Below the pieces are notes generated by a model. It saw only the letters and a list, made by a program, of their open reading frames with translations. It had not been told where the DNA came from and made no database searches. Source: Candidatus Fermentibacterota bacterium (GTDB taxonomy: Bacteria; JAFGKV01). From it: a stretch of DNA of 17,184 bases. The stretch covers positions 1 through 17,184 of the forward strand of contig JAUXFG010000081.1 of assembly GCA_030620115.1 (NCBI GenBank). The letters run 5' to 3'. Below, piece by piece: positions 3,501-17,184 of the stretch (position 1 is the stretch's first letter; each line of letters starts with the position of its first letter). Made by a program: the position numbers and the translations under genes.

Positions 3501-4081
3501 TGGAGATTCAAGATGGAGAGAATTGGATCACACTTGGCTATATTGGATCAGGAGGAGCGCTCGAAGAACAACTCATGGGGCATGATTGGGTTCGATACAC
3601 CTATGACCTCGACTGGCTGGCCGCCAGCGCACAATCGCGGGTACGATTTATCTTCAAGAGTGACGGCTCGGAGGTAGCAGAGGGGTTCTATCTGGATGAT
3701 GTTGAAGTCTCGGCGACATCGAGGGTGGCTTCGCTGCCGGATGACGTGACGGCCCGGCAGGCAGGCGAAAACCTAGAGCTACACTGGAGCGTGGTACGAA
3801 GAGACAATCTGGGCAGGTCACTGCCCAGGCCCGTGCAATTCTACAACGTGTATCGCGACATGGAAACTTGGTTCGTGCCGGGCGCCAGCAACCTCCTCGC
3901 TTCGTCGGTAGAGGATGAGGAGCCTGGCCGGCCCGGCGTGCAGTGGACGGATTTTTCCTCTTCAGTCGGTGATCCCTTGTTATGGCAGTTCTATCTTATC
4001 AGGCCTGTCTGGGGCGGTGTCGAAGGGGAAAGGAGCGCTCCCATGGGACATGTTGACTATCTGGTAGAGGATGGGGAATAG
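521..4081 (+). CDS. Secreted multidomain gingipain-like cysteine peptidase (family C25)
   Basis: The 1186-residue product starts with a signal peptide (hydrophobic FAVAFAAILANQAFCA, cleavage near residue 21). Residues about 22-215 form a propeptide-like region. The C25 domain spans about 217-590 and opens with DYLIVCARDCSTAYAELAEW, the strand typical of the family. The presumed catalytic pair is His449 in NHAGHA and Cys484 in YSIGCWPA; the 35-residue spacing is close to that of gingipain R. GRALAQTK and QVNLLGEPDLPIW near 550-585 are also family-typical. Next come an Ig-like segment (about 590-677), two CARDB-like domains (about 680-790 and 796-905, each with a PNPGE/PDPGE motif), a MAM/jelly-roll-like domain (about 911-1065) and a fibronectin III-like end. 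The Shine-Dalgarno GAGGAGG at 506-512, 8 bases before the ATG, supports the start. No recognisable type IX secretion C-terminal signal is seen, so the export route past the inner membrane is open. Likely role: extracellular or surface proteolysis. Substrate unknown. Confidence 0.88.
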   Translation: MSTGIFAVAFAAILANQAFCAVSKPLSFNPEKLSVIQARGFGQIRMEGCFSFGKPGDPALLAKPIFISLPQGEEAVSIVATVTESVIVATSIVPQPLQPPAILPMPGKYVPKPAFVEPNPAVYHGSAAYPPSLVQGLRSGYIGGSPVAAAAVVPMRWRPGNKTLVFYTRIELHVATRASGKQAERPSIISPVGLAYRDSLRSWLGLPAPIWLPELSRDALDYLIVCARDCSTAYAELAEWKTRKGLKTQIITMEKVESTYPGPDEQAKIRACILDHYENQGVWCVLLGNDSEHMLTRKVWAMDCEAGFYPDENEIRADLYFSDLDGSRDADSDGTYGEISDLVDMFPDVLVGRLPADNPIQAQGMVEKSLVYERTAPADYHDKTLFFAEVLWSDPYTDGGIAKDMIDSLCFPSSLDPIEKQYQSLGNESPASVLAALNEGRNLANHAGHANSYMMGCGTGYISDSDMDDLSNTSRYTVMYSIGCWPAALELDCIAEHFLQNGSGGGVAFVGNCRYGWGSPGNPGFGYSDLYDTEFWRNALTFDGCTTGRALAQTKITFIPFSQEENVYRWDQYQVNLLGEPDLPIWSDQPIVPVVAYPEELFMGEQVCRISVEAETGPIKDALVCLCQTGGIYTRAFSDESGTASFSLALESASPVDLTVSGHNLRPYLTTLPVVSTGAYVDVSSFGFLEVQAPANGVPNPGEELFVDVALRNTGNSASGPITMTLRSVSPLVTISDSMESCGSLLPGDSEEITQAFCLTLSSSCGPGDGFPLELEIHYPPEPRTTILPLVVGMPHPISTRLTVEDEARDGYPDPGEQAELGTRLFNAGNDTTYSLQGSIYSLDGWLSVLQGSTTFGTLAPNEEIEGAPPFTIQLAAGSPSPRTALVVLDLQDSRWVWQDTLCVPIGAIGFQDEMEFGQGGWSFPGVPNHWHISSFCSHSGGSSWYCGNESSHHYVNSSSDTLLSPDFVLDAESGLSFWLWFDVTIYGTDGLYVEIQDGENWITLGYIGSGGALEEQLMGHDWVRYTYDLDWLAASAQSRVRFIFKSDGSEVAEGFYLDDVEVSATSRVASLPDDVTARQAGENLELHWSVVRRDNLGRSLPRPVQFYNVYRDMETWFVPGASNLLASSVEDEEPGRPGVQWTDFSSSVGDPLLWQFYLIRPVWGGVEGERSAPMGHVDYLVEDGE

Positions 4082-4111
4082 CCAGGATATTTCATGACCA
4101 TGGTTTCGCTT

Positions 4112-4138
4112 CGAAAGCCGGTGAGAAGTCCGGGCTAA
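4112..4138 (+). repeat. Third copy of the 27-base AGCCGGTGAGAA repeat
   Basis: The 27 bases match 438-464 at 25 positions (differences at bases 17 and 23) and match the inverse of 378-404 at 23. Together the copies bracket the C25 peptidase gene. The repeat also supplies the TAG stop (4135-4137) of the minus-strand gene that converges here. Confidence 0.8.
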
Positions 4139-4944
4139 TCGGCAGCGAAGCGCTGGAAGATGCCATCCACCTCATAGAACGAGAATTCGAAGCCTTCCTG
4201 GATCACGTTGAGGACGCCCTGCAAATCGAAGGTGTAGCCCATGATATCGGTATAGGCAGCATTGATCCCCACGAATGAATGGATGGTCATCTGCTTCATG
4301 AGATTGATGTAGCCGCCTGAAAACCCACCCTTGTCCCATGAACCAAGAATCGGGTCTACATCCAAGAGCAAGACGGCAGACGGAGGCAATGCAGCATCCC
4401 GATCTTCCACCAGGAAATCCATGGCGTCCTTGAGCACGCCGGTGCCATGCTCGATGTCGCTCAGCAGCGTCTCATCTCCATCAAACCAGTTGATGAGGGC
4501 ATGGGTGAAGGTATCGGGGTTCGATGTGAGGGCATTCATATTGCCCATGGGGATCGGGCGTGTGTCCCGCGGAGCAAGCGTCAGATTCCTCTGACAATAC
4601 TGGATGGTTGCTTTCTGCCCGAATCGTTCAGAGAGGAGATCCACTGAACGGCCAACATCGAATGGTTCACAAGAAAAGAGATCAGCATTCACGCCACGGC
4701 CACCGAAGTGCAGAATGATATGGCTGGTTGAGACAATCTGATAGATCGAGAGCCTTCCTGCCTCCCCCCTGACGATTCTTGGATCGCACTTCCTTTTCAT
4801 GCAGAGTGTTTCCGAGAGCTCATTAACAAGGTCGATGGCGTAATCAGTGCCAAAATGCCCAGGAGGCCGTTCGATCTGGAAGTCCGCGAGGCAGTGAGGC
4901 CCCTGGATAACGGTGAGATCGTGTGCTTTGTTCTTGTTCTTCAT
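4135..4944 (-). CDS. S-adenosylmethionine-decarboxylase-like protein with a C-terminal extension
   Basis: The 269-residue protein resembles prokaryotic AdoMet decarboxylase (SpeH/SpeD) in its first half. GPHCLADF at 15-22 fits the family's GRHL.A.F start. VSTSHIILHF at 71-80 fits the self-processing site LSESHITIH, with Ser74 where the pyruvoyl group would form and His79 at the expected +5. ADLFSC at 87-92 fits .DLFTCG, with Cys92 as the expected catalytic cysteine. The residue before Ser74 is Thr, whereas the family has Glu. SpeH enzymes have about 120-140 residues; this one continues for about 135 more, and 221-266 (IHSFVGINAAYTDI..., ending IFQR) loosely echoes 77-120, which suggests an internal duplication. 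If active it would make a decarboxylated product for polyamine synthesis, but family members with other substrates are known, so the substrate is left open. The ATG lacks a strong Shine-Dalgarno. The gene converges on the C25 gene, 53 bases apart. No speE or other polyamine gene is nearby. Confidence 0.5.
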   Translation of the reverse strand: MKNKNKAHDLTVIQGPHCLADFQIERPPGHFGTDYAIDLVNELSETLCMKRKCDPRIVRGEAGRLSIYQIVSTSHIILHFGGRGVNADLFSCEPFDVGRSVDLLSERFGQKATIQYCQRNLTLAPRDTRPIPMGNMNALTSNPDTFTHALINWFDGDETLLSDIEHGTGVLKDAMDFLVEDRDAALPPSAVLLLDVDPILGSWDKGGFSGGYINLMKQMTIHSFVGINAAYTDIMGYTFDLQGVLNVIQEGFEFSFYEVDGIFQRFAAD

Positions 4945-5049
4945 GGGCTCAGCTCGGCAGTGGGGAAGAATTTGAAGAAAAGCGAAGTGCTTGAATCCGT
5001 GATTGTTTGAACGGGAAGATCCCCGGATTGGGGGATTGAGGAGATGAGA

Positions 5050-5197
5050 GCGTTCAGCGTACAGCGTAGAGATGATGGAGCAAGGAGCAAGGAGAGATTC
5101 TTCGCTCCTGTGAGTCGCTCAGAATGACAGGGGGTGGTGAATGTCATGGATGTGTGGATGTGTGTCATTCTGAGGGAACGGAGCGACCGAAGAATCT
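5050..5197. repeat. Composite repeat: heptad array, GATGATGGA box, inverted repeat (copy B)
   Basis: Three 7-base units (GCGTTCA, GCGTACA, GCGTAGA) fill 5050-5070. GATGATGGA follows at 5071-5079, then a purine-rich CAAGGAG linker. The inverted repeat arms are 5095-5128 (AGATTCTTCGC ... CAGAATGAC) and 5164-5197 (GTCATTCTGAG ... AAGAATCT), with a 35-base loop. The same order of modules occurs at 8461-8600. It fills much of the 4945-5311 gap. The rest of that gap has only a small perfect hairpin, GGTTGGC-GGT-GCCAACC at 5272-5288, downstream of the gene ending at 5312; no T run follows it. Confidence 0.85.
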
Positions 5198-5311
5198 GGG
5201 GAGAGGAGGGGGAGCTGACGGCTGGGATTGCCAAATGCTGGAATGCGAGAATGGGTGGATGGGGAAGTCCGGGTTGGCGGTGCCAACCGCCATAATCAAC
5301 GATGTTCCAGG

Positions 5312-5863
5312 TCATTTGGGGAGTTCTTCGCGGTGATATGTTGATTCTATGAGTTGTTGCCAGCCGTCCTCTGTTTCCATCTCCATGGTCCAGACAAAGG
5401 TCTCATGGTCGAGAAGTCTGATAGTCTGCCGGATCGTCGGGCCTTGGGGCTCATCGTTGGGTGAAGTTTGAAATAGGCAGGAATCCTTTTCCATATGCTT
5501 GACAACTGCCTGTCCTACAGAACCATCATGGCCGAAGTCATACGAGATAAGCTGCTGTTTTCCCGGATGCCAGGCGATCACGGATTCGTATTGGAGATAC
5601 TTCTTCTCAGGGGTGGCGTCGTAGGAATACGCCTTGAGAATCTTCTTGTTGATGCCCCATTCATAGACCAGACGGCCGTTGAATTCCTCTCCTGTTGCCC
5701 ATTGTCCGTGGCTCAGCCACTGGCCGCCTACCAGCATTGCAAGCGGGGCGAGATGGTCTTTGGGAAGATCGCTTTGTGCTGGTTTTTCTTCATGGGCGCC
5801 GAGCTGAAAATATAGAATCACTGATATCAGCACCACTGCTGATAGCTTGTGTTTTCCTGGCAT
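5312..5863 (-). CDS. Small exported protein, possibly a DUF1579-like beta-barrel
   Basis: I do not firmly recognise this 183-residue protein. It begins with a signal sequence: positive KHK, then the hydrophobic LSAVVLISVILYFQLGA, with likely cleavage near residue 23. The mature part has LAPLAMLVGGQWLSHGQW, then alternating short strands (YEWGINKKILKAYSY, YLQYESVIAWHPGKQQLISY, FGHDGSVGQAVV, IRQTIRLLDHETFVWTMEM). A GG.W opening followed by strands with a W.P....I..Y.F pattern recalls the DUF1579/lipocalin-like barrels often found as small periplasmic proteins. No catalytic residues can be named. The gene starts 7 bases after the stop of the DUF2723 glycosyltransferase and has no good Shine-Dalgarno of its own, so translation is probably coupled to that gene. 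TGA stop at 5312-5314. Confidence 0.75.
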   Translation of the reverse strand: MPGKHKLSAVVLISVILYFQLGAHEEKPAQSDLPKDHLAPLAMLVGGQWLSHGQWATGEEFNGRLVYEWGINKKILKAYSYDATPEKKYLQYESVIAWHPGKQQLISYDFGHDGSVGQAVVKHMEKDSCLFQTSPNDEPQGPTIRQTIRLLDHETFVWTMEMETEDGWQQLIESTYHREELPK

Positions 5864-5870
5864 GTCTTCG

Positions 5871-8264
5871 TCAGGAATCCGGTGAAGCGGAGGCGGTAGT
5901 CTCTGGAACAGCCCTACGCAAGCCCTCTCGCTTTGATGCTTCTAGAATCCATCTGACTTGTTCATCGCCAGGATGGAGACTGTCATACGCCTGAAGGAGC
6001 GTCATGGCTTTGTCGAGTTGATTCACTTTCATGTACTCGCGCGCCTGGAGCTTCAGGAGCTCCGGGTGTGATTCCGCTATTGCCAGATACTCTTGGAGTG
6101 CTGAGTCTGCGAAACCTACCGCATCCAAAGCCATGGCCCGATAGTACCGAATGCCGGGGTCATTGGGCAGGATGCGCGCTGCGGTAGTGAAGAGATCATA
6201 CCCTAGCTGTGAGTCCCCACGAATAAGGAGCTCTCTGCCGGCTCGGGAGAAGGCGGCTGCATAGTTGGACAGGAGCCTCAGGGTATTCCGCGGTTTCCGG
6301 ACCTTGGGGTCAAACACGCCGTCATACGTGTACGAATTCGTGAGAAGGTCCACGGTTCTGTCAACATCGATCGTCAATGCTTGGGGCTTCTGGTGAAGCC
6401 TGAATACTAGGCCTTCCATGACCAGATGTTTGTCGAGACCGACTTTGTTTTGAGTACTCACGGTCACAGCAAAATAGATCGGTCGTTTCCAGTTGTTGCT
6501 CTTGATGATATTGAAGACACCGAGATCCTGAACTCTGAGCATCTGACCGGCCTTGAGTCTGAGCTCAAGTTCTCCCGCAAGGAAAAGCTTCTCCTCCCTA
6601 AGGATGTGGCCGTACGTCATCCGTTCGATTTCGTCATCTTTCAGCTTCAACGGAACCTTGTGTTCACCATGCTTGATTTGCAGCCAGTACCAGGGCGTAT
6701 TCAGGAGGCTGAGATTGACCACCGCTACGTCTTTTCGCACGCCTTCGACTTCCTGCAAGAACCAAAGAGGAAAAGTATCATTGTCTCCATTGGTGAAAAT
6801 GATGGCGTTCTCTTCACAGCTCTTCAGCATATTCTCGCCATAGCCATGGGCGATCCAATCGCCCTCTCTGCTGGCCTTGCGGTAGTTGGTGGCTATGGAT
6901 GCCACGGGCATGGCTATCACGATGATGACCAAGAGAGCGCGTGTCCAAGAGTGGGAGGCAAGTTTCAGTCTCGTTGCCAGCACTGCAGGGGCTTCTTTCA
7001 GCAGGTAGACCGCACCGATGCCGATCCAATACGCAAAGAAGAAATACGCAGGCGTGTAGAAGTACTCTCGTTCACGGACTTCCCGGGCCGCCATACCGAC
7101 GGGCGTGTCCGGCGGGAATTTATCCAGCAGGAACTTGTGGGGTGGCAGCTTGAAGTTGAGGTAGATGATGAGCCCAAGACTGGATGCCAGAAACACCAAG
7201 CCGAGGGCCACGAGAGTTCTCTTATCCTTGAGCCAGTTTACGGCGATTCCCAGAAGCCCGGCTGCCAGGGCTAGCAAGGGAATCTGGGCAGTGAAGTAGT
7301 CAAGAAACATCAGTACCTGATAGCCGAAGGGTGACTTGCGCTGGAAGATGGGCAACGGGGCGTACTGGTCTCGTTGGAGCACGGCTCGCAATGCTTTCCA
7401 TGTCTCAGGGTTCGCCTCGTCGATGGCAGGGTTTAACTGCGATCGTATGGGCAAGTAGAGATGTACTGATACCGCCAACCCGAAGAGCAGCCAGCCCACA
7501 AACACGAATTTCCAGTTGGGCGGCCTCATCACCGCCACCACAGCCACCAAGATCAGAAAAAGGACAAGCGTCGTGGTACCGGCACTCTTGATGCCGAGAG
7601 ATGTGATTATCGCCCAAATGGGCAGGAGCGTGAGTGGCGTCAGGGCAAGGCTCGCTCCCGCGCGCCTGTCGCCAAACCAGACCAGGGCGAGGAGACCGAA
7701 TCCTACCAGGAAGCTGGCCAAGTGGTTGCCGATGCTCAGCGCAAGCAGATAGAGGATCAAGTAGAGTGGTCGATACCCCTTCTCTGGATTCCTTGCCCAC
7801 CGAAGACCGAGATAGAAGATGACGGCCATGAAGCAGGATGAGAGGCCGTAGACCTCCGCCTCCACCGCATTGTTCCAGTAAGAGTCGCTGAAGGCGAGCA
7901 CCAGCGCACCGGCGACGGCGCCTAGATGCACGAGAAGATCGCTCCCCAGATGCAGCCAGTGCCGTGAGATCATGAGCACGGAGAGATAGACGAAAGCCAC
8001 GGCAAGGGCGGAGAAAAAGGCAGAGAGGAGGTTGACGCGGAGCGCGACGGAGCCAGCTATGGGGAGGAGAGAGAAGATCCTGCCCACCAATACGTAGAGT
8101 GGTGTTCCCGGGGGGTGGGGAATGCCAAGGATGAAGCTTGTTGCGATGAACTCACCCGCGTCCCAGAAGGCCACGGTGGGGGACAGGGTCTTTACATAGA
8201 ATACCATGGAGATGATGAACACCGCCACAAAACATAGAAAGCTTTGCCGAGTTTCTCTTTCCAC
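5871..8264 (-). CDS. DUF2723 membrane glycosyltransferase (TMEM260-like O-mannosyltransferase family) with C-terminal TPR
   Basis: The 797-residue integral membrane protein has the DUF2723 signature near its N-terminus: FWDAGEFIATSFILGIPHPP at 33-52, the acidic loop after the first membrane segment where GT-C enzymes hold catalytic carboxylates. Other family-typical stretches are NNAVEAEVYGLS at 131-142 and FTNGDNDTFPLWFLQEVEGV at 490-509. About ten hydrophobic segments lie before residue 460, followed by a soluble domain and, at about 675-775, TPR-like helices (GDSQLGYDLFTTAARILPND, AMALDAVGFADSALQEYLAI). The family includes eukaryotic TMEM260 protein O-mannosyltransferase; bacterial members are thought to move a sugar from a lipid carrier onto exported proteins or glycans. 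The start is GTG at 8264, chosen because AAGGAG lies 7 bases upstream. The gene downstream is 7 bases away, so the pair probably forms one transcript. Acceptor and donor cannot be read from the sequence. Confidence 0.9.
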   Translation of the reverse strand: MERETRQSFLCFVAVFIISMVFYVKTLSPTVAFWDAGEFIATSFILGIPHPPGTPLYVLVGRIFSLLPIAGSVALRVNLLSAFFSALAVAFVYLSVLMISRHWLHLGSDLLVHLGAVAGALVLAFSDSYWNNAVEAEVYGLSSCFMAVIFYLGLRWARNPEKGYRPLYLILYLLALSIGNHLASFLVGFGLLALVWFGDRRAGASLALTPLTLLPIWAIITSLGIKSAGTTTLVLFLILVAVVAVMRPPNWKFVFVGWLLFGLAVSVHLYLPIRSQLNPAIDEANPETWKALRAVLQRDQYAPLPIFQRKSPFGYQVLMFLDYFTAQIPLLALAAGLLGIAVNWLKDKRTLVALGLVFLASSLGLIIYLNFKLPPHKFLLDKFPPDTPVGMAAREVREREYFYTPAYFFFAYWIGIGAVYLLKEAPAVLATRLKLASHSWTRALLVIIVIAMPVASIATNYRKASREGDWIAHGYGENMLKSCEENAIIFTNGDNDTFPLWFLQEVEGVRKDVAVVNLSLLNTPWYWLQIKHGEHKVPLKLKDDEIERMTYGHILREEKLFLAGELELRLKAGQMLRVQDLGVFNIIKSNNWKRPIYFAVTVSTQNKVGLDKHLVMEGLVFRLHQKPQALTIDVDRTVDLLTNSYTYDGVFDPKVRKPRNTLRLLSNYAAAFSRAGRELLIRGDSQLGYDLFTTAARILPNDPGIRYYRAMALDAVGFADSALQEYLAIAESHPELLKLQAREYMKVNQLDKAMTLLQAYDSLHPGDEQVRWILEASKREGLRRAVPETTASASPDS

Positions 8265-8271
8265 ACTCTCA

Positions 8272-8277
8272 CTCCTT
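8272..8277 (-). promoter_or_regulatory. Shine-Dalgarno AAGGAG that fixes the GTG start of the DUF2723 gene
   Basis: On the minus strand AAGGAG stands 7 bases before GTG at 8264. It supports the non-ATG start. Confidence 0.7.
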
Positions 8278-8280
8278 GAT

Positions 8281-8460
8281 ACATGGCCACTGCCGGAATC
8301 TTTTTTCCGTCGCAGAAAGCAATGGCCGATACTCTTCCGTCTATTTCGTTACGTACGACTAGCCCTGCGCTGGGGGAAAGATGCAGGATTCAATGAACCC
8401 GAAGAAGCAAGCAGATTATCGGCAGCAGAACAAGGGGAATGTGGGAATAGGAAGAAGAGA
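8281..8460. other. Gene-free stretch upstream of the DUF2723 gene, no recognisable feature
   Basis: No credible coding frame, RNA or clear -10/-35 pair was found here. It should contain the promoter of the DUF2723 gene. The repeats begin at 8461. Confidence 0.4.
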
Positions 8461-8600
8461 GCGTTCAGCGTTCAGCGTTGAGATGATGGAACAAGGAGAG
8501 ATTCTTCGCTTCTGTGGGTCGCTCAGAATGACAGGGGTTATTACTCTCGGGCATGTCAATACATGTGTCATTCTGAGGAAGAAGAGCGACCGAAGAATCT
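8461..8600. repeat. Composite repeat: heptad array, GATGATGGA box, inverted repeat (copy C)
   Basis: Heptads GCGTTCA, GCGTTCA, GCGTTGA at 8461-8481 run into GATGATGGA at 8482-8490, then ACAAGGAG. Inverted repeat arms are 8499-8532 and 8567-8600 with a 34-base loop. Arm and module order match copy B at 5050-5197 almost base for base outside the loop. Confidence 0.85.
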
Positions 8601-8623
8601 AGGAGCTCCGACAGAAGGATTGA

Positions 8624-8762
8624 ACGCCGAACATCCAACATTCAACATTCAACGTCGTCGTGAGGATGATGGAGGGCCATGCTCCGTCATGGCCGCTGAT
8701 GCTCGATACGACGGACACGATCCGCCAGCTGGCGGACGTCCCTCCAGAGATGCAATATTCCT
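8624..8762 (+). repeat. Heptad array plus module with the TCCGCCAGCTGGCGGA palindrome (copy 1)
   Basis: Five heptads (ACGCCGA, ACATCCA, ACATTCA twice, ACGTCGT) occupy 8624-8658. They are followed by GATGATGGA at 8665-8673, GGGCCAT, a stretch GATGCTCCGTCATGGCCG, GATGCTCGATACG, and the perfect 16-base palindrome at 8721-8736. The same series occurs at 14574-14762 with two extra blocks inserted. Confidence 0.8.
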
Positions 8763-8792
8763 CCGGTTGACGGCTGATGGCTCTCTCGAGAA

Positions 8793-8827
8793 ACATTGAA
8801 AGTCGAACATCGAACATCGAACATCGA
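8793..8827 (+). repeat. Tandem heptad array, word ACATCGA
   Basis: Five 7-base units: ACATTGA, AAGTCGA, then ACATCGA three times. Intergenic, between copy 1 of the palindrome module and the next heptad array. Confidence 0.8.
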
Positions 8828-8852
8828 ATGGGAGAGAGGGGAATGTGGGAGG

Positions 8853-8888
8853 AATCTATAATCTGTCAATCTGGAATCTGAAATCTGG
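8853..8888 (+). repeat. Tandem heptad array, word AATCTGG
   Basis: Units AATCTAT, AATCTGT (plus one extra C), AATCTGG, AATCTGA, AATCTGG. A related 8-base word, AATCTGGC, is repeated at 17067-17087. Confidence 0.7.
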
Positions 8889-8903
8889 GGGAGGAAGAAA
8901 GGC

Positions 8904-8945
8904 AACTTCTCAATGAGTCCGGGCATCCGGGCTTATTGAGAAGTT
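8904..8945 (-). terminator. Hairpin terminator of the tilS-ftsH-folP-cdaA block
   Basis: Arms 8904-8923 and 8926-8945 pair at 17 of 20 positions, including a perfect 11-base outer stem AACTTCTCAAT/ATTGAGAAGTT and a GC-rich inner CCGG part, with a 2-base gap between arms. On the minus strand it begins 16 bases after the cdaA stop and is followed by GCCTTTCTTCC, a weak T-rich tail. Position and stem quality support a factor-independent terminator. The T tail is poor, so a processing or stability role is possible. Confidence 0.6.
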
Positions 8946-8961
8946 ATGTCTCCGATATATG

Positions 8962-9717
8962 CTATGAGCGTTCCTGGAATAGGTTGGCGAGCGAGGCCCG
9001 CAAGGTCTCGCGTGTGAGGTTTCTCTTTAATTTTCCGTTTACCGCTATGGAGATCTTATGTGTTTCTTCGCTTATCACTATGACCGCCGCATCAGTCTCC
9101 TCGCTGATGCCCAATGCCGCAAGATGCCTTGTGCCTAGGGGCCGTCTCCCCTTTGCCCTTGTCGCCAAGGGCAGAATGCACGAGGCTGCCGCGATGCGGT
9201 TCCCTCTGATGATGACCGCACCATCATGCAGGGGGGAACCAGGCGTGAAGATGGTAGCGAGCAGTTCGGCACTGACCTCTGCGCTGAGTGATGTGCCGCT
9301 GGCTTCCCATGTCTTGAGCCCCGTGTTGCGTTCGAGCACGAGGAGACCGCCCTCACCCCGGGCAGAGAGGAGAGAGGCCGCCTCCGCCACCTCATCAAGG
9401 GCATGGGATTGCTCCACGCGGAAGAGCGTCCGGATGAGGGGGTTCTGGCCTAGCTGGGTCAGTGCTCGGCGGATCTCAGGCTGGAAGATGATGGCCACCA
9501 CCAGGACCCATGCCACGCGTACACCAGACATGATCCAGCTCAGGCCTCGTAGATTGATCCACTGGGCGATCATGGAGAACAGAAGGAGCACGGTGATTCC
9601 CAGGACCATGCGTGCCGCCCGGGTACCCCTAATTAGAAGGAGAAGCCGGTAGATCAGCCACGAGACTACCAAAATATCGAAGACATCGAGGATCCCGGGG
9701 CGCATGAATGAAGGCAT
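8962..9717 (-). CDS. cdaA: Diadenylate cyclase CdaA (c-di-AMP synthase)
   Basis: CdaA joins two ATP into the second messenger c-di-AMP. With the start at 9717 the protein has 251 residues, near the family's usual length of about 270. Three membrane segments (about 12-29, 38-51 and 64-78) come first, followed by the DAC (DisA_N) domain with the active-site motif LHDGAVI (Asp165-Gly-Ala) and GTRHLAALGISE at 195-206. The usual second motif is RHR; here it reads RHL. The reading frame is open back to 9807, inside folP, but the extra 30 residues are unlike the family. GGAG at 9729-9732 precedes the ATG at 9717, with rather long spacing. It follows folP by 31 bases, in the order tilS-ftsH-folP-cdaA seen in several Gram-negative lineages. 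The partner genes ybbR/cdaR and glmM, which often follow, are absent; a hairpin ends the block. Confidence 0.93.
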   Translation of the reverse strand: MPSFMRPGILDVFDILVVSWLIYRLLLLIRGTRAARMVLGITVLLLFSMIAQWINLRGLSWIMSGVRVAWVLVVAIIFQPEIRRALTQLGQNPLIRTLFRVEQSHALDEVAEAASLLSARGEGGLLVLERNTGLKTWEASGTSLSAEVSAELLATIFTPGSPLHDGAVIIRGNRIAAASCILPLATRAKGRRPLGTRHLAALGISEETDAAVIVISEETHKISIAVNGKLKRNLTRETLRASLANLFQERS

Positions 9718-9748
9718 AATCAGCAATTCTCCATGTGAAGATAGAGCA

Positions 9749-10759
9749 CTAGAGCAGCCTCTCGAGAATACGAACCGCACGGACGGTGGGAAGCACATCA
9801 TGGACACGTATGACGCGGGCGCCTCGCATGACGGCAGCGCTGGCCGATGCTAATGATCCTTCAAGCCGCTGCTCCACGGGAAGGTCGAGGATATGACCGA
9901 TGAATGATTTCCTCGAGACACCCAGAAGCACGGGCCGACCAAGACCCCGCAGGAGCCCAATATTCTTTAGAAGCTCGAGGTTATGCTCTACCGTCTTCCC
10001 AAAACCAATTCCCGGATCAACGACGAGACGATGTTCATCTACCCCTGCGCGGGAAAGCCTGTCCAGAGCCCCAGCCAGGAAGAGCGCCACCTCACCTGTC
10101 GCCCATGAGTATGTGGGCTTGCGCTGCATGGTTCGAGGCTCTCCTTGCATGTGCATTACAATGCCCCCCGCATCGGATGAGGCCATGACGGAAATCATCT
10201 CGTTGGAGCGAAACCCGGTGACATCATTGATTACGCATGCCCCACATTCCAGCGCTGCCTGCGCCACCGTGGCGTGCTGCGTATCAATGCTCACGCGCAC
10301 GCCACGGTTTGCCAATTCCTCGACCACGGGCAAGACACGGCGCTTTTCTTCTTCCAGAGTCACTGCGCAGGCATTGGGCCGCGTGGACTCCCCGCCCACA
10401 TCCACAATATCGGCGCCTTCTTCGGCCATCTGCATCCCGCGAGCCACCGCCCTCTCGCGTTGCGCATATCTTCCCCCATCGTAGAAGGAATCCGGTGTCA
10501 CGTTCAGGATTCCCAGGACCAGAACTCTCTCATTCAGGGTGAAGGTTTCCGCTCCCGCATGCCATAAGAAACCGGAACTATCCGCCTCCAATGCTCGCTG
10601 CAATGCCCTGGCGGCTGGATTCCCGGTTGCCTGCCACTCCTCCAAAGTGTCGGCCGCGCAAGAATGGGATAAGATTGTTGGATTCAGGAGCTCATGGGGA
10701 TCACCATCACTGAAGACTGCATACTCTTCCGTGCTTGTGGGGAGCGCCACCCAGCTCAT
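9749..10759 (-). CDS. folP: Dihydropteroate synthase
   Basis: FolP condenses 6-hydroxymethyl-7,8-dihydropterin pyrophosphate with p-aminobenzoate in folate synthesis. All family motifs are present: LGILNVTPDSFYDGG (82-96), DVGGESTRP (120-128), SIDT (157-160), INDVTGF (177-183), MHMQGEPRTMQ (202-212), DPGIGFGK (248-255), GVSRKSF (280-286) and the closing RVHDV (318-322). The 336 residues exceed the usual 270-290 because about 75 residues precede the first motif; their segment LNPTILSHSCAADTLEEW has no function I can name. Start and ftsH stop share ATGA (10756-10759), so translation of folP is probably coupled to ftsH. The stop at 9749 lies 31 bases before cdaA. Cytoplasmic. Confidence 0.96.
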   Translation of the reverse strand: MSWVALPTSTEEYAVFSDGDPHELLNPTILSHSCAADTLEEWQATGNPAARALQRALEADSSGFLWHAGAETFTLNERVLVLGILNVTPDSFYDGGRYAQRERAVARGMQMAEEGADIVDVGGESTRPNACAVTLEEEKRRVLPVVEELANRGVRVSIDTQHATVAQAALECGACVINDVTGFRSNEMISVMASSDAGGIVMHMQGEPRTMQRKPTYSWATGEVALFLAGALDRLSRAGVDEHRLVVDPGIGFGKTVEHNLELLKNIGLLRGLGRPVLLGVSRKSFIGHILDLPVEQRLEGSLASASAAVMRGARVIRVHDVLPTVRAVRILERLL

Positions 10760-12705
10760 TGTTTCGGTCTGCTGCGCCGCCCCGCAGGCTGTCTCCCGCG
10801 ACGAACCCGCCCCAGGGGCTCACCCTTCAATATCTTATCGATGTCATCTCCGTCCAGGATCTCCCGTTCCAGCAATGCCTTGGCAAGTATCTCCAGCTTG
10901 TCCCGGTTCTTGATCAGCAACGTCTGCGCTCGGGTGTAGGCTGACTCCACTATTTTCCGAATCTCCTGGTCAATTATTTTTGCCGTCTCCTCGCTGATGG
11001 TTTTCTGAGAAACGATGTCGCGTCCCAGGAAGACGGGCTCGCCCTTTTGCCCGAAGGTCAATGGCCCCAGCTCATCACTCATGCCCCACTCGCAGACCAT
11101 ATTGCGTGCGAGCTCAGTGGCACGCTCGATGTCATCACCTGCTCCGGTGGTGGGCTCTCCGCCAATCAGCACATCCGCTGCCCGCCCTCCCAGCATAACG
11201 GCCAAAGTCTTTTCGATGTACTCCTTGGAGTACGTATGGCGTTCGTCCACAGGCAGATAGTGGGTAACACCCAGAGCCCGGCCTCGGGGGATAATGGTTG
11301 CTTTGTGGATAGGATCGGTCCCCGGAATCAGTTTTGCGACAAGCACGTGACCCGATTCATGATACGCGATAGCGGTTCGTTCTTCGTCGGAGATGATCAT
11401 GGATCGCCTCTCCATGCCCATCATGATTTTGTCCTTCGCATCTTCGAAGTCTATGGGCGAGACATGATCACGACCCTTCCTTGCAGCCAGGAGAGCGGCC
11501 TCATTCACCAGATTCGCCAGATCGGCACCTGAAAGGCCGGGAGTTCCGCGGGCGATGATTGCAAGCTTCACACTCTTGCCAAGCTTCACATTGGCGGCAT
11601 GGACCTCCAAGATCTGTCGCCGCTCATTCACGTCGGGCATTTCCACCACGATCTGTCTGTCGAATCTCCCAGGGCGGAGAAGTGCCGGATCCAATACATC
11701 GGGCCGGTTCGTGGCGGCCAAAAGGATGACCCCTTCATTGGCCTCGAATCCATCCATCTCTACAAGAAGTTGGTTCAGGGTCTGTTCGCGTTCGTCATGG
11801 CCGCCGCCCAAGCCGGCACCCCTGTGCCGGCCCACTGCATCGATCTCATCGATGAAAATGATGCACGGCGCGTGGCGTTTCCCCTGATCGAAGAGGTCGC
11901 GAACCCTGCTGGCTCCCACACCAACGAACATCTCCACGAAATCCGAACCACTCATGCTGAAAAAGGGCACTTCGGCCTCCCCCGCCACTGCTCGGGCCAG
12001 GAGAGTTTTCCCTGTTCCCGGGGGACCCAGCAGAAGAGCTCCCTTGGGGATCTTGCCGCCGAGGCGCTGGAATCGACCCGGGTCTTTCAGGAATTCGACG
12101 ATTTCCTGCAGTTCCTGTTTTGCTTCCAAAGCGCCGGCCACGTCTTTGAATGTCGTGGTCGGTTGGTCGCCGTCCAGCAGCCGCGCCCTCGACTTGCCGA
12201 AATTGAATGCTCTGGAAGTTCCCCCCTGCATCTGGCGCATCAGGAATATGAACGCCCCTGCGAGCACGAGATAGGGGAGACTTCCCACCAAGATGTGGAT
12301 CCAGCCGAGACGCGGCTCCTTGGCACGAATGGTTATCCCTTTTTGCTCGAGCTCCTGCACCAATGTTGGGTCTTCGAAGGGGATGGCGGTTTGGAGCTTT
12401 CTTGCGGTAACTTCTTTGCCTCGGACCACGAAGGTCGTAGGGCTCCGTAGCTGCACGGTGATCCGTGTTCGTTCGAAGGTTACCTTTTCGATGTTATTCT
12501 GGGTGAGTTCTCTCTTGAACTCGGTATAATCGACCTCGGGCGCGGGCTCTCTACCGAGGCCCAGGATATGTACCCCGGCAAGAACCGCGGAGAACAAGAC
12601 CAGCCACACAAGCAACCCTCGCCCGGGTCGTAGTTGCAGAGGGACTTTCAACCGATTCTTCTGCTCGCTTTGAGGATCCTCTTTCCTCTCATCTTTCTCG
12701 GACAA
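10756..12705 (-). CDS. ftsH: ATP-dependent zinc metalloprotease FtsH
   Basis: FtsH is a membrane-anchored hexameric AAA protease that removes damaged membrane proteins and some regulators. The 649 residues show the standard order: membrane segment 30-48, FtsH extracytoplasmic domain about 55-130, second membrane segment about 138-156, AAA domain with Walker A GPPGTGKT (227-234), Walker B IIFIDEID (282-289), the [11 protein letters not shown] pore/ISS region (260-270) and second region of homology [19 protein letters not shown] (333-351). The peptidase domain has HESGH (449-453) as zinc motif and Asp525 in [10 protein letters not shown] as the likely third ligand. The start codon is TTG at 12705, with GGAGG 6 bases upstream and an in-frame stop only a few codons further up, so no longer form is possible. 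The basic tail ([14 protein letters not shown]) is usual. tilS lies upstream across a 395-base gap. Confidence 0.97.
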
Positions 12706-12711
12706 ACCTAT

Positions 12712-12716
12712 CCTCC
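12712..12716 (-). promoter_or_regulatory. Shine-Dalgarno GGAGG that fixes the TTG start of ftsH
   Basis: GGAGG on the minus strand, 6 bases before TTG at 12705. An in-frame TGA upstream (12718-12720) excludes earlier starts. Confidence 0.75.
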
Positions 12717-12751
12717 ATCATTAGACGCATATTAATCCGTCAGCCGTTCAT

Positions 12752-12880
12752 AGGTTCAGAGGTTCCCGCTGGAAGCGGGATTCAAGGTTATCTTTCAGAT
12801 CCAACGAATCAACGGTTCAATCTCCGGTGAACCATGAACCATGAATCTATGAACCTTTCAACCCGTCAACGGTTACATGA
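12752..12880. repeat. GGTTCA/GAACCAT mini-repeat field with a small hairpin
   Basis: GGTTC words recur at several places and GAACCAT-type heptads run from 12829 to 12857 (GAACCAT, GAACCAT, an 8-base GAATCTAT, GAACCTT). A perfect hairpin TCCCGCT-GGA-AGCGGGA lies at 12764-12780. These fill part of the 12706-13100 gap between tilS and ftsH. In 12945-13048 only ATGGAATG/CATTGGAATGATGG-like words on opposite strands stand out; no gene is supported. Confidence 0.55.
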
Positions 12881-13055
12881 ATCCTTACAACTCCTTGGCA
12901 CGCGAGGTCTCTTTCAACGGCCCGCGCTTCGATCTCCATCAGGGAATATTGAGGCGATGGAATGTTGGAAGAATGGCTTCCTCCAGAGAAGAAGGGATAG
13001 GATCCCAATCCTTGCAACCCAGTATGCCATCATTCCAATGCCCCAATTGCGCCTG

Positions 13056-13071
13056 TCCGCCAGCTGGCGGG
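13056..13071. repeat. Third copy of the CCGCCAGCTGGCGG palindrome
   Basis: CCGCCAGCTGGCGG at 13057-13070 is a perfect 14-base palindrome. It matches the centres of the palindromes at 8721-8736 and 14730-14745 but lacks the last outer pair. It stands 30 bases past the tilS stop (13101) in that gene's direction and is not preceded by the heptad/GATGATGGA part. Confidence 0.75.
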
Positions 13072-13100
13072 TAGCGAAGCGGAGCTGAGTTCATCCCTGA

Positions 13101-14546
13101 TTATGTTCTCAGGACGATTCTGCATAACAGGAGCATCTTCCTGGTTGTGGGCCCCACCAGAGCGATATCAGCCCTGGCGATTCCGGGAATCCATACGATC
13201 CGATCCGTTTGCTTCTCTAACACCACAGGGCATTTCCAACGGTCGGCAAAGGGAATCCCGTGGTCCCTAAGATACTTCTTGAGTCGTACTCTGCCCTGTC
13301 CGAACCCCACAGGCGAGAACCGGTCGCCCGGATTCCTATTCCTGACCAGCAAAGGACCCGTCAGTTGCTCCGCATCAAGGACGGCACAGTCACTCCCGAC
13401 CGGCATCAACGGGCTGACGTTCCGCGGAGTCCAGAGCACCGAAGCTCGAATTCCCTCACCGATCTTTTCGATCCAGGTGACTCCGGGAATCGCCATGGGA
13501 CACAAGAAGTCCGGCGTCGCACGGGGAGAGAATGGCCCGAGAGAAAGACGCGATTGTGCTGTCCTTTCCGCCTGCAGCCCCTGAGGGAGACTGAGGCGTG
13601 TGCCCTCTTCGGTGATGAAGCGTAGGAGACGATCAATATGCAATGTTAGCGGAATCCTATGCGCCCCATACAAGCGTTCCAGGACCAATCTCAGAACTCG
13701 TCTTTGTACAGCCGCATGATATTCACCCAAACGGACAAGATCAAGGATTAGCTTTCCGTGGCCCTTTTCTGCGAATGTGACCTTTAGGGCGTCTTGCGAG
13801 AGCTGCTGGATCAGATCCTCCCATTCTCCGATGAGATCAGCGCTTCGCGACAGCCCCGCCACGGCTGCATTCCCGAACCGTTCAGCCAGGTGAGGGAGTA
13901 CGCGATGACGCAAGAACGCCCTTGTCTTGGCGAGGTCACGATTCGTGGGATCCGAAATCCACTGAACCCCAAGCAGAGACAAGAAGGTCCTCAATTCAAC
14001 CCTGCGTATACCGAGAAAGGGACGCGCGATTCCATCCATCCTGCTTGTTCTGATGGAAGAAAGAGCCGCGCCCGAGCCGCCACGCACGGCGGCAAGCAGG
14101 AAGCTCTCCGCATTGTCATCCATGGTGTGGGCCGTGATAACCATGCCGGCGGGGCCTGCCTGATCCTTCAGAAAAGCGTAGCGCTTGTTTCGCCAACGGT
14201 CCTCAGGGCCAAAGCCTGCCACGGATTTATAGTCGCTTTTCCTTCCTCTGACGGCTCCCGCGCCAAGCTGATGGGCGAGTCCCTGTACAAGGGCCCATTC
14301 CCGGGCATTGCGAGCCGGGTCGGTCTCATGATCGAAGTATGCGAGCATGAACTCGATGGCTCGAGCCTTTGCATATGGTGCAACAAGAAGGGCCATGGCC
14401 ACCGAATCACCGCCGCCAGATACCGCCGCCACGATACGGTTTGTCTCATGACACCCCAAGGATGTGCATACCTGGGAGACAGTAAAAAATAGGGGAAGGC
14501 TGGTGATTCTATCCAGGAGATCGGATTCAGGGAGCTGGCGGTTCAT
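13101..14546 (-). CDS. tilS: tRNA(Ile)-lysidine synthetase TilS
   Basis: TilS uses ATP to attach lysine to C34 of the tRNA-Ile with anticodon CAU, so that it reads AUA. From the start at 14546 the protein has 481 residues. The N-type ATP pyrophosphatase domain carries the PP-loop SGGGDS (43-48), TAHTMDDNAES (138-148) with RGGSG, RPFLGIRRVELR (175-186), and SDPTNRD...RAFLRHRVLPHL (198-220). The C-terminal TilS_C domain is seen in LVRNRNPGDRFSPVGFGQ followed by KKYLRDHGIP. The frame is open to 14591, but the extra 15 residues are encoded by the heptad repeat and are unlike the family; ATG at 14546 is preferred although its Shine-Dalgarno is poor. It is the first gene of the tilS-ftsH-folP-cdaA order, but the 395-base repeat-containing gap before ftsH suggests a separate promoter there. 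Confidence 0.93.
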   Translation of the reverse strand: MNRQLPESDLLDRITSLPLFFTVSQVCTSLGCHETNRIVAAVSGGGDSVAMALLVAPYAKARAIEFMLAYFDHETDPARNAREWALVQGLAHQLGAGAVRGRKSDYKSVAGFGPEDRWRNKRYAFLKDQAGPAGMVITAHTMDDNAESFLLAAVRGGSGAALSSIRTSRMDGIARPFLGIRRVELRTFLSLLGVQWISDPTNRDLAKTRAFLRHRVLPHLAERFGNAAVAGLSRSADLIGEWEDLIQQLSQDALKVTFAEKGHGKLILDLVRLGEYHAAVQRRVLRLVLERLYGAHRIPLTLHIDRLLRFITEEGTRLSLPQGLQAERTAQSRLSLGPFSPRATPDFLCPMAIPGVTWIEKIGEGIRASVLWTPRNVSPLMPVGSDCAVLDAEQLTGPLLVRNRNPGDRFSPVGFGQGRVRLKKYLRDHGIPFADRWKCPVVLEKQTDRIVWIPGIARADIALVGPTTRKMLLLCRIVLRT

Positions 14547-14573
14547 GGGGAATGGGGGAATGGGGAGGAATGA

Positions 14574-14762
14574 ACATCCAACATCGAACATTCAACATTC
14601 AACATCGAAGTGAGGATGATGGAGGGCCATCCGCCGGTTGTCGGATCTTCGATGCTCCGTCATGGCCGTTGATGCTCGATACGGAAAGATCACAGGCAGG
14701 GACGCCTGCGCCACTGAGCTGCGCCACGATCCGCCAGCTGGCGGACGTCCGTCCATAGATGC
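14574..14762 (+). repeat. Heptad array plus module with the TCCGCCAGCTGGCGGA palindrome (copy 2)
   Basis: Heptads ACATCCA, ACATCGA, ACATTCA, ACATTCA, ACATCGA fill 14574-14608, then GATGATGGA at 14615-14623 and the same blocks as copy 1, ending in the palindrome at 14730-14745. Compared with copy 1 there are two added blocks: about 20 bases near 14631-14650 (CCGCCGGTTGTCGGATCTTC) and about 40 bases near 14684-14723, which include a GGCAGG-GACGCCTG-like dyad. It fills most of the gap between the metallophosphoesterase gene and tilS. A G-rich GGGGAATG repetition lies at 14547-14571. Confidence 0.8.
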
Positions 14763-14818
14763 TGATGAGCCGGCGATTGGGAGAAAGGCACTGGGGGAGA
14801 CCGGAACAAGGGGACTGA

Positions 14819-16549
14819 TTAGTGGGCAAGTGAGCCACTGATGAAGGATCCTGATGGCCGCGAGAATCGGTCAAAAACCTCTCCGTCCCGGGCGATTGCT
14901 TCGACGGTGATGTTGGTTCCGGAGACGTGAACCGAAATCCAATGTGCACGTTTCTTGCAGAGGCGACTCCATGATCGCTTGGGGCCTCTTGTATCATATA
15001 GGGGAGCGCCACCGCCCGCGGTGACCAGATAGACCGTTCCGCTGAGATCGCGCCTTCCGGCCTTCAATGGCCAGGTCACCTCGTAGCCGTGATCATGCCC
15101 GGAGAATACTATGGATATCCCTGCCCATTCGAAAAGCGGACAGAGCTCGGTTCTCACCGAAAGATCACTGCCGTGTTTCCTACTGGAGTACGGGGGCGCA
15201 TGCAGTACCGCGAAACTGGGTATATCGGGGGAAATGCGCCAGGATGTGAGTACTGATTCCGCAAAGGCTCTCTGCGGTGATCCCTTTTCATAGGGGAGTT
15301 CCGAATCGAGCACGAGAAACCGGGCAGGCCCAAAAGAAAATGCATAGTAGTACTCCCGGCCTGGAAAGTGGAAGACCTCGCCAAAGATCGGAGACTCCTC
15401 TTCGTGATTGCCGGGGGCCATCATGTACGGCGTGGTGGCTGCGAGCGGATGACTGGAGGCAAGGCTTCTGTTCCACTGGTTTTCATCCCATCCCGAATCC
15501 ATGAAATCACCCGTGTCAAGGATCAGTTGCGGTGATTCGTGTGCCGCCATGGCGGCAAGCACATCGGATTGTCCTTTCGTGTCACCAATGACGCAGAATC
15601 GCAACTCGTCAGCCTCCGGCATCACAAAGCTGTAGGTGGGGCCATTCTGAGCAACACGGTAGTAGTGCCGCTCCCCGGGTTGCAGCGAGGAGATGGTATA
15701 GAAGCTTCCTCCGGCATCATGTTTGAGTCTCTTGGAGGAAAGCTTCCCGGGACTCTTTCCTATCCACACGGACTTCTCTTGCTCCGCATTCCTAAATGCC
15801 ATCACCACGGATGCTCCGGACGGATCACCTACCGAGAGATAGGGCGACCGATCCCCCGGGGTTCCACGGCGTAGGCCCCAGTTGTGGACACGGGCGGCAA
15901 TCTCGACATGATTCCCAATTCGCCTGACCAGGTGGATCTTCTCTCCGTTCTTGTCTCGGCCCTTTGTTCCCCAACCCCCCAGCGTGAACTCCATGGCCGC
16001 CCGATCACCAGGACCTACAAGGAGCTTACCGAACCAGTGGCCATGACCCAGGTGGGTGAGCGGGAACACGCGTGGGCGCCACCTGCCATCAGGTGTCATG
16101 CCGAGGCCAAAGAGGCTGCCGGCCACGTATACTGTTCTGTCTTCCGGGGTATCCTGAGGAATCTCGACACGGATCTTGAGGAGCACCTGTCGGACTCTCA
16201 CCAACTTGGTGGCACTCCCTCGTTTCCCCCGCACGGTTGTCCACGTTGCCACCAGATGGATAGGACCACTTTCTTTATCGGTAGGCCACCAGAATGTGAA
16301 GCCCGGCGTTTCCGGGACGCGTGAAAGCGAAACATGGCCCGCGGTGACCGAGGCTGCGATAAGAGATTCGCCGGGCGCGGCTTGGACAGTGGCAACGCAG
16401 AGGCCGCCAACCGATCCTTCATCACGGATTATTGTACCGTCGCCACCTCGGACCACCAGCGATGCCGCGTAGGGTGATTCGCCCAGGAGCGACAGCAACA
16501 GCCAAACCATGGTCGAGACAATTGCAGGTCGCATGGGGAAAGGGCTCAT
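14819..16549 (-). CDS. Secreted calcineurin-type metallophosphoesterase with Ig-like, CBM20-like and PAP-N domains
   Basis: From the ATG at 16549 the product has 576 residues. A signal peptide (RPAIVSTMVWLLLSLLGESPYAA, cleavage near 29) leads an Ig-like region (about 30-120). Next comes a starch-binding-like domain (about 125-225: RTVYVAGS ... MEFTLGGWGTKGRDKNGEKI ... VHNW), then a fibronectin-like domain as in purple acid phosphatases (about 232-310: PYLSVGDPSGASVVMAF, LQPGERHYYRV). The metal-binding core is complete: GDTKG (Asp323), DTGDFMD (Asp348), GNHE (Asn381-His382), LHAPPY (His450) and GHDHGYE (His485, His487). The tyrosine that purple acid phosphatases carry after GD..is Asp here, so it is a general metallophosphoesterase of that branch. 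Likely exported hydrolase of phosphate esters; the carbohydrate-binding-like domain hints at a phosphorylated glycan, unproven. The frame is open to 16834, but that part overlaps the EIIA gene; the ATGA overlap at 16546-16549 marks the true start. Confidence 0.85.
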   Translation of the reverse strand: MSPFPMRPAIVSTMVWLLLSLLGESPYAASLVVRGGDGTIIRDEGSVGGLCVATVQAAPGESLIAASVTAGHVSLSRVPETPGFTFWWPTDKESGPIHLVATWTTVRGKRGSATKLVRVRQVLLKIRVEIPQDTPEDRTVYVAGSLFGLGMTPDGRWRPRVFPLTHLGHGHWFGKLLVGPGDRAAMEFTLGGWGTKGRDKNGEKIHLVRRIGNHVEIAARVHNWGLRRGTPGDRSPYLSVGDPSGASVVMAFRNAEQEKSVWIGKSPGKLSSKRLKHDAGGSFYTISSLQPGERHYYRVAQNGPTYSFVMPEADELRFCVIGDTKGQSDVLAAMAAHESPQLILDTGDFMDSGWDENQWNRSLASSHPLAATTPYMMAPGNHEEESPIFGEVFHFPGREYYYAFSFGPARFLVLDSELPYEKGSPQRAFAESVLTSWRISPDIPSFAVLHAPPYSSRKHGSDLSVRTELCPLFEWAGISIVFSGHDHGYEVTWPLKAGRRDLSGTVYLVTAGGGAPLYDTRGPKRSWSRLCKKRAHWISVHVSGTNITVEAIARDGEVFDRFSRPSGSFISGSLAH

Positions 16550-16989
16550 GATTGGCTCAGTATCGCGGATCGAATCATTTGAGCCGCCACGGCTGGTTTC
16601 GCGCGTATCATTTTCTGCTCTTTGTGTTTGAAGAGCCGTAGCAGGGAGGCGAGCACTTGGAGATACTGCTTCTGACGCCCTTCGGGGCCCAGAATAAGGC
16701 ATATGAGTTCTATCTTCTTGCCTGGTCCGAAATCCACGCCTCGAGGACATCTGGCCAAAACAACATAGAAGCCCTTGAGTTCGGACAGTCTTGCGTGGGG
16801 CATTGCCAAGAGAGGGCTGACCACCGTTGGGCACTGCCTCTCTCGTTGGAGCACTGCCTGAAGGAGCCTCCCAGGCGGCACATGTTTGATACTGGACGAG
16901 AGGCTCCTGACCATGAGTTCAAGCAGGCTCTCCCGGAAGCACTTCTCCATGTCGATGACACGAACGGGTTCCATAAGGAGTGGATCCAT
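16546..16989 (-). CDS. PtsN-like PTS EIIA (fructose/nitrogen type) protein
   Basis: The 147-residue protein is a single EIIA type-2 domain. LLAMPHARLSE at 60-70 is the phosphorylation site, with His65 as the residue that would take phosphate from HPr/NPr (family: .A.PH...). The following FYVVLARCPRGVDFG and ELICLILGPEGRQKQYLQVLASLLRLF match the family's ...ARL..GI.F.....V.LVF.L..P.....YL..LA.L. pattern. No EIIB, EIIC or HPr is adjacent, so it is more likely regulatory, like PtsN, than part of a sugar permease. The first strand region (1-50) is poorly conserved. ATG at 16989 has GGAGG 7 bases upstream (16997-17001). The stop overlaps the start of the metallophosphoesterase by ATGA, so the two are co-translated. 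Confidence 0.85.
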   Translation of the reverse strand: MDPLLMEPVRVIDMEKCFRESLLELMVRSLSSSIKHVPPGRLLQAVLQRERQCPTVVSPLLAMPHARLSELKGFYVVLARCPRGVDFGPGKKIELICLILGPEGRQKQYLQVLASLLRLFKHKEQKMIRAKPAVAAQMIRSAILSQS

Positions 16990-16996
16990 GGGGCTT

Positions 16997-17001
16997 CCTC
17001 C
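16997..17001 (-). promoter_or_regulatory. Shine-Dalgarno GGAGG for the EIIA gene
   Basis: GGAGG on the minus strand, 7 bases before ATG at 16989. It supports this start over Met6. Confidence 0.7.
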
Positions 17002-17066
17002 ATCTCAGATTCCAATGAAGAGAAATAATAGGGCATCCCCAGGAGGGGCAACATGGCTGGAAGAGG

Positions 17067-17184
17067 AATCTGGCAATCTGGCAATCCAAAATCGACCGAT
17101 GGAGGGATTGGGGTTCGGGGTTCAGGGTTCAGATGACGGAGAGAGGAGGTGGGAGAGATTCTTCGCTCCTTGCAGTCGCTCAGA
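17067..17184. repeat. Composite repeat cut by the window end (copy D)
   Basis: AATCTGGC is repeated at 17067-17087. Heptads GGGGTTC, GGGGTTC, AGGGTTC occupy 17110-17130, followed by GATGACGGA (17132-17140, one change from GATGATGGA). The first arm of the GTCATTCTGAG-family inverted repeat runs from 17156 (AGATTCTTCGC ... GTCGCTCAGA) to the window end. The second arm would lie outside. Confidence 0.75.

Follow-up and report, generated by a model that had tools for sequence, protein, structure and literature searches.

The present analysis concerns a composite repeat in a 17,184-nucleotide stretch of a Candidatus Fermentibacterota genome (assembly GCA_030620115.1, contig JAUXFG010000081.1, positions 1 to 17,184 of the forward strand; hereafter the window), where arrays of 7-base units (heptads) are followed by a box, GATGAYGGA, and then by a tail of inverted repeats. 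A sequence-only reading had listed five such sites, at 5050, 8461, 8624, 14574 and 17110 (sites A to E), and heptads, box and tail were found at all of them, with a repeat of the GTCATTCTGAG family following at 5050, 8461 and 17110 and a GGAGGGCC...CCCTCC stretch bearing TCCGCCAGCTGGCGGA at 8624 and 14574. These sites are probably copies of two composite, dispersed intergenic repeat families, similar to REPINs (doublets of repetitive extragenic palindromes, REPs, that form hairpins), which were copied as units and became nested in one another. Each copy would consist of a heptad array, a short linker ending in GATGAY, and an inverted dimer of a small hairpin. In family 1 these parts would be an AACATYS array, AAGTGAGGATGA, and TGGAG-hairpin...hairpin-CTCCA with an ACGGAG loop in both hairpins and differing stems; in family 2 they would be an AGCGTTC or GGGTTCA array, GATGAYGGA, and an inverted pair of TGTC-tagged hairpins. 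In the genome, a 4.1 Mb draft in 296 contigs with 98% completeness and 1.6% contamination, hairpin-dimer repeats are scattered between genes and keep their pairing; they are copied as composites, are nested, and are specific to the lineage in their presence.

The tail of family 1, which we call the core, has the following structure. Its box continues as GGAGGGCCATGCTCCGTCATGGCC...GGACGCGACGGAGCGCGTCCCTCCA, and both halves carry, on opposite strands, a 7-bp stem, the loop ACGGAG and the sequence CTCCA, with different stems; the tail thus holds a single hairpin type twice, as an inverted dimer whose members differ in their stems, and the two hairpins face each other around a spacer as in REPINs. 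Among monomers chosen solely for their loop and tail, pairing held in 822 of 854 stem cells (96%), compared with 22–33% when one side was slid. Distinct fully paired stems included GGCCATG, GGACGCG, GGCCACG, GGACGTG and GGACGAC in this genome and GGAAACG and GGCTGCG in other phyla, so that compensatory changes preserve the core hairpin, again as in REPINs. The consensus dimer folded with z = -5.4 relative to shuffled sequences. The first hairpin had about 104 genome copies at ≤2 mismatches and none in the reversed control, and the core is extragenic and multicopy, with 16 sampled copies between genes and 0 in called genes. It ends in TGGAG/CTCCA and carries no GTAG tag. The dimer (TGGAG...CTCCA) takes its outer end from the box, whose final TGGA belongs to both; in family 1 the box is therefore a junction and not the independent conserved module that had been proposed. 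About half of the core copies lack it and differ upstream: by simple rules applied to upstream context, 44 of 104 copies followed heptads and GATGAT, 33 followed a tandem unit (about 97 bp, with CTCGCT at its end), 9 followed CGTGAATTCATCCGCT, and 18 had other contexts. The partner tail GTCCCTCCA lay within 145 nt in 63 of the 104.

The composites also appear to have been copied as wholes. The box alone barely exceeds chance in the window (14 matches at ≤1 mismatch, 8.5 expected); together with its context, as GATGATGGAGGGCCAT, it had 47 exact copies genome-wide and 78 at ≤2 mismatches, with 4 for the reversed-pattern control, which upholds the earlier proposal of a dispersed modular element. 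Among family-1 copies the heptads are position-specific when counted back from the box (AACATTC at -3 in 21 of 44, AACGTCG or AACATCG at -2 in 26 of 44), suggesting that the arrays descend by copying from one founder array; ordinary copying thus suffices for a pattern previously considered hard to explain by simple duplication. Word and tail are strongly coupled across the genome, AACATYS arrays preceding the GGAGGG…CCCTCC tail and AGCGTTC or GGGTTCA arrays the GTCATTCTGAG repeat. In hand-checked copies AACATYS preceded the core in 29 cases and the inverted-repeat tail in 1, while AGCGTTC preceded the core in 4 and the inverted-repeat tail in 19 (Fisher p about 1e-9, a value that is only indicative because the copies are related by descent). 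The earlier picture of a variable word, a common box and one of two tails holds only in part: word and tail do not combine freely.

Arrays were counted in a 604 kb sample (15% of the genome) composed partly of contigs picked for holding the box, so that the fraction of arrays with a box is, if anything, inflated. In this sample GATGRYGGA stood at the 3′ end of 15 of 60 period-7 arrays, 45 were boxless, and the box was never found at the 5′ end of word-assigned arrays. Independence of heptads and box, named at the outset as evidence against a joint element, was therefore partly observed, but the order of heptads, box and tail was fixed as predicted. Among short periods, only period 7 was strongly enriched in intergenic DNA, with 30 noncoding arrays in the first 405 kb at a moderate threshold, compared with 11 at period 8 and 0–7 at periods 4–6 and 9–12, and the tandem 7-bp intergenic units are those expected of heptamer short tandemly repeated repetitive sequences (STRRs). 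Further words in the sample were AATCTGR, CCAGTAA, ACAGAAG, GAACCCT, AATTGNC, TGAAGGG and others; four words were tallied separately. In reverse complement the AGCGTTC word becomes AACGCTG, which shares the AAC-R-Y-Y-S pattern of AACATCG, so the AGCGTTC and AACATYS words may be related on opposite strands. At one locus (L243, contig C135:1-600) AGCGTTC heptads and box form a 46-bp higher-order tandem with starts at 15, 61, 107 and 153. An alternative explanation could be that the heptads are ordinary slippage microsatellites arising anywhere between genes, with an incidental place before the box, and both the many words in this genome and the over-representation of heptamer repeats in other bacteria (PMC4692102) agree with it, but it is very unlikely given position-specific units, a box that is never on the wrong side, and the coupling of word and tail.

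A second alternative is a target-site effect, in which hairpin dimers insert beside or into existing heptad arrays and the composite is an insertion footprint, not a copied unit. Boxless arrays are common, the TCCGCCAGCTGGCGGA palindrome has been inserted inside heptad arrays, REPs are known within other palindromes (PMC3733652), and both sister genomes carry AACATYS-like arrays and rare core copies that are not joined. We nonetheless consider this explanation rather unlikely, because most family-1 copies share one junction register (...AACRTCGAAGTGAGGATGA|TGGAGGG), pointing to one founder fusion followed by copying, and because two other core lineages lie in non-heptad contexts. Chimeras are rare and have their joint at the box: L017, L021 and L206 unite an AGCGTTC-type array with the core, and L067:9217 unites an AACATYS array with the inverted-repeat tail. 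Both families have 10 bp in common, GATGATGGAG, and three copies have ACGAAGTTTG where the array would stand, which indicates that the 5′ side is replaceable. Under the copied-unit reading we favor, heptads would be gained and lost by slippage and arrays and tails would rarely be exchanged by recombination at GATGATGGAG. A bolder version, in which GATGATGGAG is a working exchange junction, heptad arrays are interchangeable 5′ modules swapped onto hairpin dimers, and a dedicated single-strand mechanism exchanges hairpin apices, would describe an unknown class of cassette-like non-coding mobile element across phyla, and we hold it to be unlikely.

The GTCATTCTGAG repeat of family 2 is an inverted hairpin pair as well, and both tails are built like REPINs or bacterial interspersed mosaic elements. 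Its monomers begin with TGTC in 113 of 121 cases, a listed variant (with CCTC) of the CGTC tag of CGTC REPs, and 82 of 121 have an inverted partner within 90 nt, in head-to-head fashion. The stem is uninterrupted for only 5 bp and weak alone, where CGTC REPs have an 8–9 bp stem and a 4–5 nt loop, and most monomers end in CGAAGAATCT[CG] and not in CCA. We have not filed the repeat under the CGTC REP super-family despite its tag, stem base and head-to-head arrangement, because of the interruption in its stem after 5 bp and the missing CCA tail. In the window, a further GTCATTCTGAG-family pair at about 210–302 has neither heptads nor box, and its arms are in the other relative orientation.

Nesting is seen most directly in TCCGCCAGCTGGCGGA, which had been taken for a tail and proved to be a separate 16-bp palindrome nested inside the actual tail. 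It occurs at 182 genome places at ≤1 mismatch and at none for the reversed pattern; exact copies numbered 0 in the two sister genomes and 1 in another of 40 relatives. The palindrome (P) sits in the apices of other hairpins, as GGACGCGA[P]CGTCC for GGACGCGACGGAGCGCGTCC and as GGGGCA[P]CCGTGCCC for GTAGGGGCACGGCATGCCGTGCCC, and also inside heptad arrays: of 53 distinct contexts classified by script, 12 were CGTCC-type apices, 8 GGGGCA-type apices and 13 heptad arrays, and by eye 7 and 4 of 15 other contexts were variants of the two apex classes. Location of REPs inside palindromes is known from Anabaena variabilis, T. roseum and H. neapolitanus (PMC3733652). In this genome, hairpin modules have also become nested in each other's apices. 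In some core copies (L010) hairpin 2 is replaced by a GTAG-tagged palindrome, GTAGGTCGGGTTAGC...GTAACCCGACAT.

None of the tested elements lay inside genes called by a hexamer-scored caller, although 81% of the sample was coding, and repeated DNA made up 23.5% of sampled intergenic sequence compared with 0.2% of coding sequence. Two same-family relatives (G001 and G002), of a different genus and with 40–73% protein identity, allowed the proposed presence/absence comparison, which supported the earlier reading on this point: flanking genes abut there with no repeats between. The gene order DUF2723-DAC-FolP-FtsH-TilS-phosphoesterase-PTS (names assigned by reading translations) is kept in G001, where DUF2723 and DAC abut or overlap, while the window has a 697 bp spacer at 8265–8961 with sites B and C; TilS and the phosphoesterase abut in both G001 and G002, while the window has a 272 bp spacer at 14547–14818 with site D. 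The simplest reading of these alignments is that the elements were gained in the lineage of the window, and the composites would then have spread as units between genes after the split from the sister genus (three elements in two spacers).

It is possible to suppose instead that the repeats are RNA-level regulators kept by selection, with heptads bound by a repeat-reading protein and hairpins acting as terminators or mRNA stabilizers. All are intergenic, the hairpins are stable, and the TAACTGA heptamers of Beggiatoaceae have been proposed as sites of a translational regulator (PMC4679880). Orientation relative to flanking genes was sought as a sign of RNA function and no clear bias emerged (AACATYS 12 same and 6 opposite; AGCGTTC 1:4; inverted repeat 9:8), all gene contexts are used, and the orthologous spacers of the sister genomes lack the elements, which makes such a role quite improbable; the pattern requires no cellular function.

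The core extends well beyond this genome. Contigs with an exact 24-mer of the hairpin are assigned to Lentisphaerae, Pirellulales, Phycisphaerae, Opitutales, Chloroflexi, Eisenbacteria, Zixiibacteriota and Syntrophaceae by the taxon names given to draft metagenome genomes; for Syntrophaceae and Zixiibacteriota only a single hairpin was present. Neither heptads nor GATGAT preceded the 24-mer in the other-lineage contigs, and exact GATGATGGAGGGCCAT was absent from ten other-lineage core-bearing genomes. In one same-family relative the surroundings of the core are identical to a contig labelled Candidatus Eisenbacteria isolate Prado127. An artefact of assembly or binning of a repeat-rich metagenome genome might be suspected, since the draft is fragmented and several contigs, including that of the window, start or end in these repeats. 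We give this almost no credence: about 100 core copies stand in differing gene contexts over many contigs, the draft is 98% complete with 1.6% contamination, and the same core occurs in independent genomes of other phyla.

Movement in trans via single-stranded hairpins has been proposed for REPINs and their REP-associated tyrosine transposases, RAYTs (PMC3116915), and the earlier suggestion of a trans-mobilised element remains plausible: the families may have spread in trans by a hairpin-recognizing, single-strand (Y1/RAYT-like) transposase, or else by template switching. Several points weigh against this reading of composites spreading as mobile units. The core dimer was beside none of the 4 Y1 genes of this genome and beside 1 of 30 Y1 loci in the ten other-lineage core-bearing genomes, a Y1 fragment that breaks off there, so that the flanking RAYT typical of REPINs was not found. 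Target-site duplication was not demonstrated, the sister genus being too divergent for base-level junctions; as the sister genomes are of a different genus, loss on their side could, strictly, also account for the empty spacers; and this reading assigns the heptads no part in mobility. The core next to Y1 transposases was considered as a REPtron and rejected, because the sole adjacent Y1 is one broken fragment. One of the 4 Y1 genes of this genome, for a 187-aa RAYT-like transposase (L112, contig C200, about 12766–13119), instead has the GTAG-tagged GTAGGTCGGGTTAGC...GTAACCCGACAT palindrome on both sides and is likely a REPtron of a different REP family. An Opitutales metagenome-assembled genome (G044, L038) had 134 Y1_Tnp matches and repeated core dimers (L047).

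Coordinates of window features are collected in the table below. The end of the window is the contig end, which cuts the repeat at 17110. Boxless heptad arrays occur at 8792–8832, 8851–8888 and 12828–12855. An inverted repeat, ACTTCTCAATgagtccgggcatccgggcttATTGAGAAGTTA, lies at 8903–8946; the 3′ part (...TATTGAGAAGTTAC) of the third core lineage is matched by the right half of this repeat.

Table. Repeat features of the window, with positions, strand and the analysis behind each.
Feature	Position	Strand	Evidence
Site A heptad array, AGCGTTC type, 3 imperfect units	5049-5070	+	repeat scan, window sequence
Site A box GATGATGGA	5071-5079	+	motif search
Site A tail, TGTCATTCTGAG...CGAAGAATCT hairpin monomers in inverted arrangement, the left at 5095-5129 and the right at 5163-5197	5095-5197	+	fold z = -3.7
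Site B heptad array, AGCGTTC type	8460-8481	+	repeat scan
Site B box GATGATGGA	8482-8490	+	motif search
Site B tail, inverted TGTCATTCTGAG hairpin pair	8499-8600	+	fold z = -4.5
Site C heptad array AACGCCG-AACATCC-AACATTC-AACATTC-AACGTCG and linker TCGTGAG	8623-8664	+	window sequence
Site C box GATGATGGA; the hairpin pair has its 5′ end in bases 8670-8673	8665-8673	+	motif search
Site C tail (core), inverted hairpin dimer: TGGAG-[GGCCATG CTCCGT CATGGCC]-spacer-[hairpin 2, palindrome apex]-CTCCA	8670-8746	+	
TCCGCCAGCTGGCGGA palindrome in apex of site C hairpin 2, replacing CGGAGCG of the simple form	8721-8736	.	
AACATCG heptad array without box or tail	8792-8832	+	
AATCTGR heptad array (different word) without box	8851-8888	+	
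Site D heptad array AACATYS and linker AAGTGAG	14573-14614	+	
Site D box GATGATGGA	14615-14623	+	motif search
Site D tail (core), extra hairpin-like inserts in both hairpins, including palindrome 14730-14745	14620-14755	+	
Site E heptad array GGGTTCR	17111-17131	+	repeat scan
Site E box GATGACGGA	17132-17140	+	motif search
Site E tail, truncated at the contig end to the first arm of the pair of TGTCATTCTGAG hairpins	17156-17184	+	

Comparison with described systems places the parts of these composites among several kinds of repeat. Like REPINs and bacterial interspersed mosaic elements (PMC3116915), the core pairs two small hairpins in inverted orientation across a short spacer, lies outside genes in many copies, and also forms tandem clusters that include flanks (the lineage of about 97 bp); unlike them it has no GTAG tag, no RAYT was found flanking it, and one of its lineages bears on one side a heptad array and linker in fixed form. 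The GTCATTCTGAG repeat resembles CGTC REPs (PMC3733652) in its monomer tag, in AT at the stem base, in being mostly head-to-head dimers and in having no dedicated transposase, and palindrome nesting has precedents there; it differs in its interrupted stem and in its trailing unpaired bases. The ACGGAG-loop core has the tag of neither the GTAG nor the CGTC REP super-family. Heptamer repeats elsewhere (cyanobacterial STRRs; TAACTGA, PMC4679880; GGGAATC, PMC4692102) likewise have partly degenerate 7-base units in 2–7 copies, are intergenic, number hundreds of sets and are patchy between species, but this genome combines several words, and some of its arrays stand in fixed register with hairpin dimers. 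The elements are short, non-coding, structured and dispersed between genes, as are miniature inverted-repeat transposable elements, but, unlike in those, a terminal inverted repeat matching a host transposon and a target-site duplication were not demonstrated. An Rfam search of the window matched no family, the core had no match in a plasmid collection, and a literature search with the literal sequences gave only incidental matches among those listed. The kinds of repeat are thus already known, and as far as could be found it is their linkage into fixed, nested composites that is apparently undescribed.

The finding is real but non-categorical, and what is unusual in it is the fixed fusion of heptads with hairpins, the nesting in apices, and the identity of the hairpin dimer across phyla. 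REP-like hairpin dimers are joined to heptamer arrays and nested, and 24 bases of them are identical in Lentisphaerae, Planctomycetes, Verrucomicrobia, Chloroflexi and relatives of this genome. Two questions thereby become testable, namely which agent mobilizes REP families lacking a RAYT and by what route heptamer repeats pass from one genome to another, and the nested copies provide ready “before and after” sites for the chemistry of insertion.

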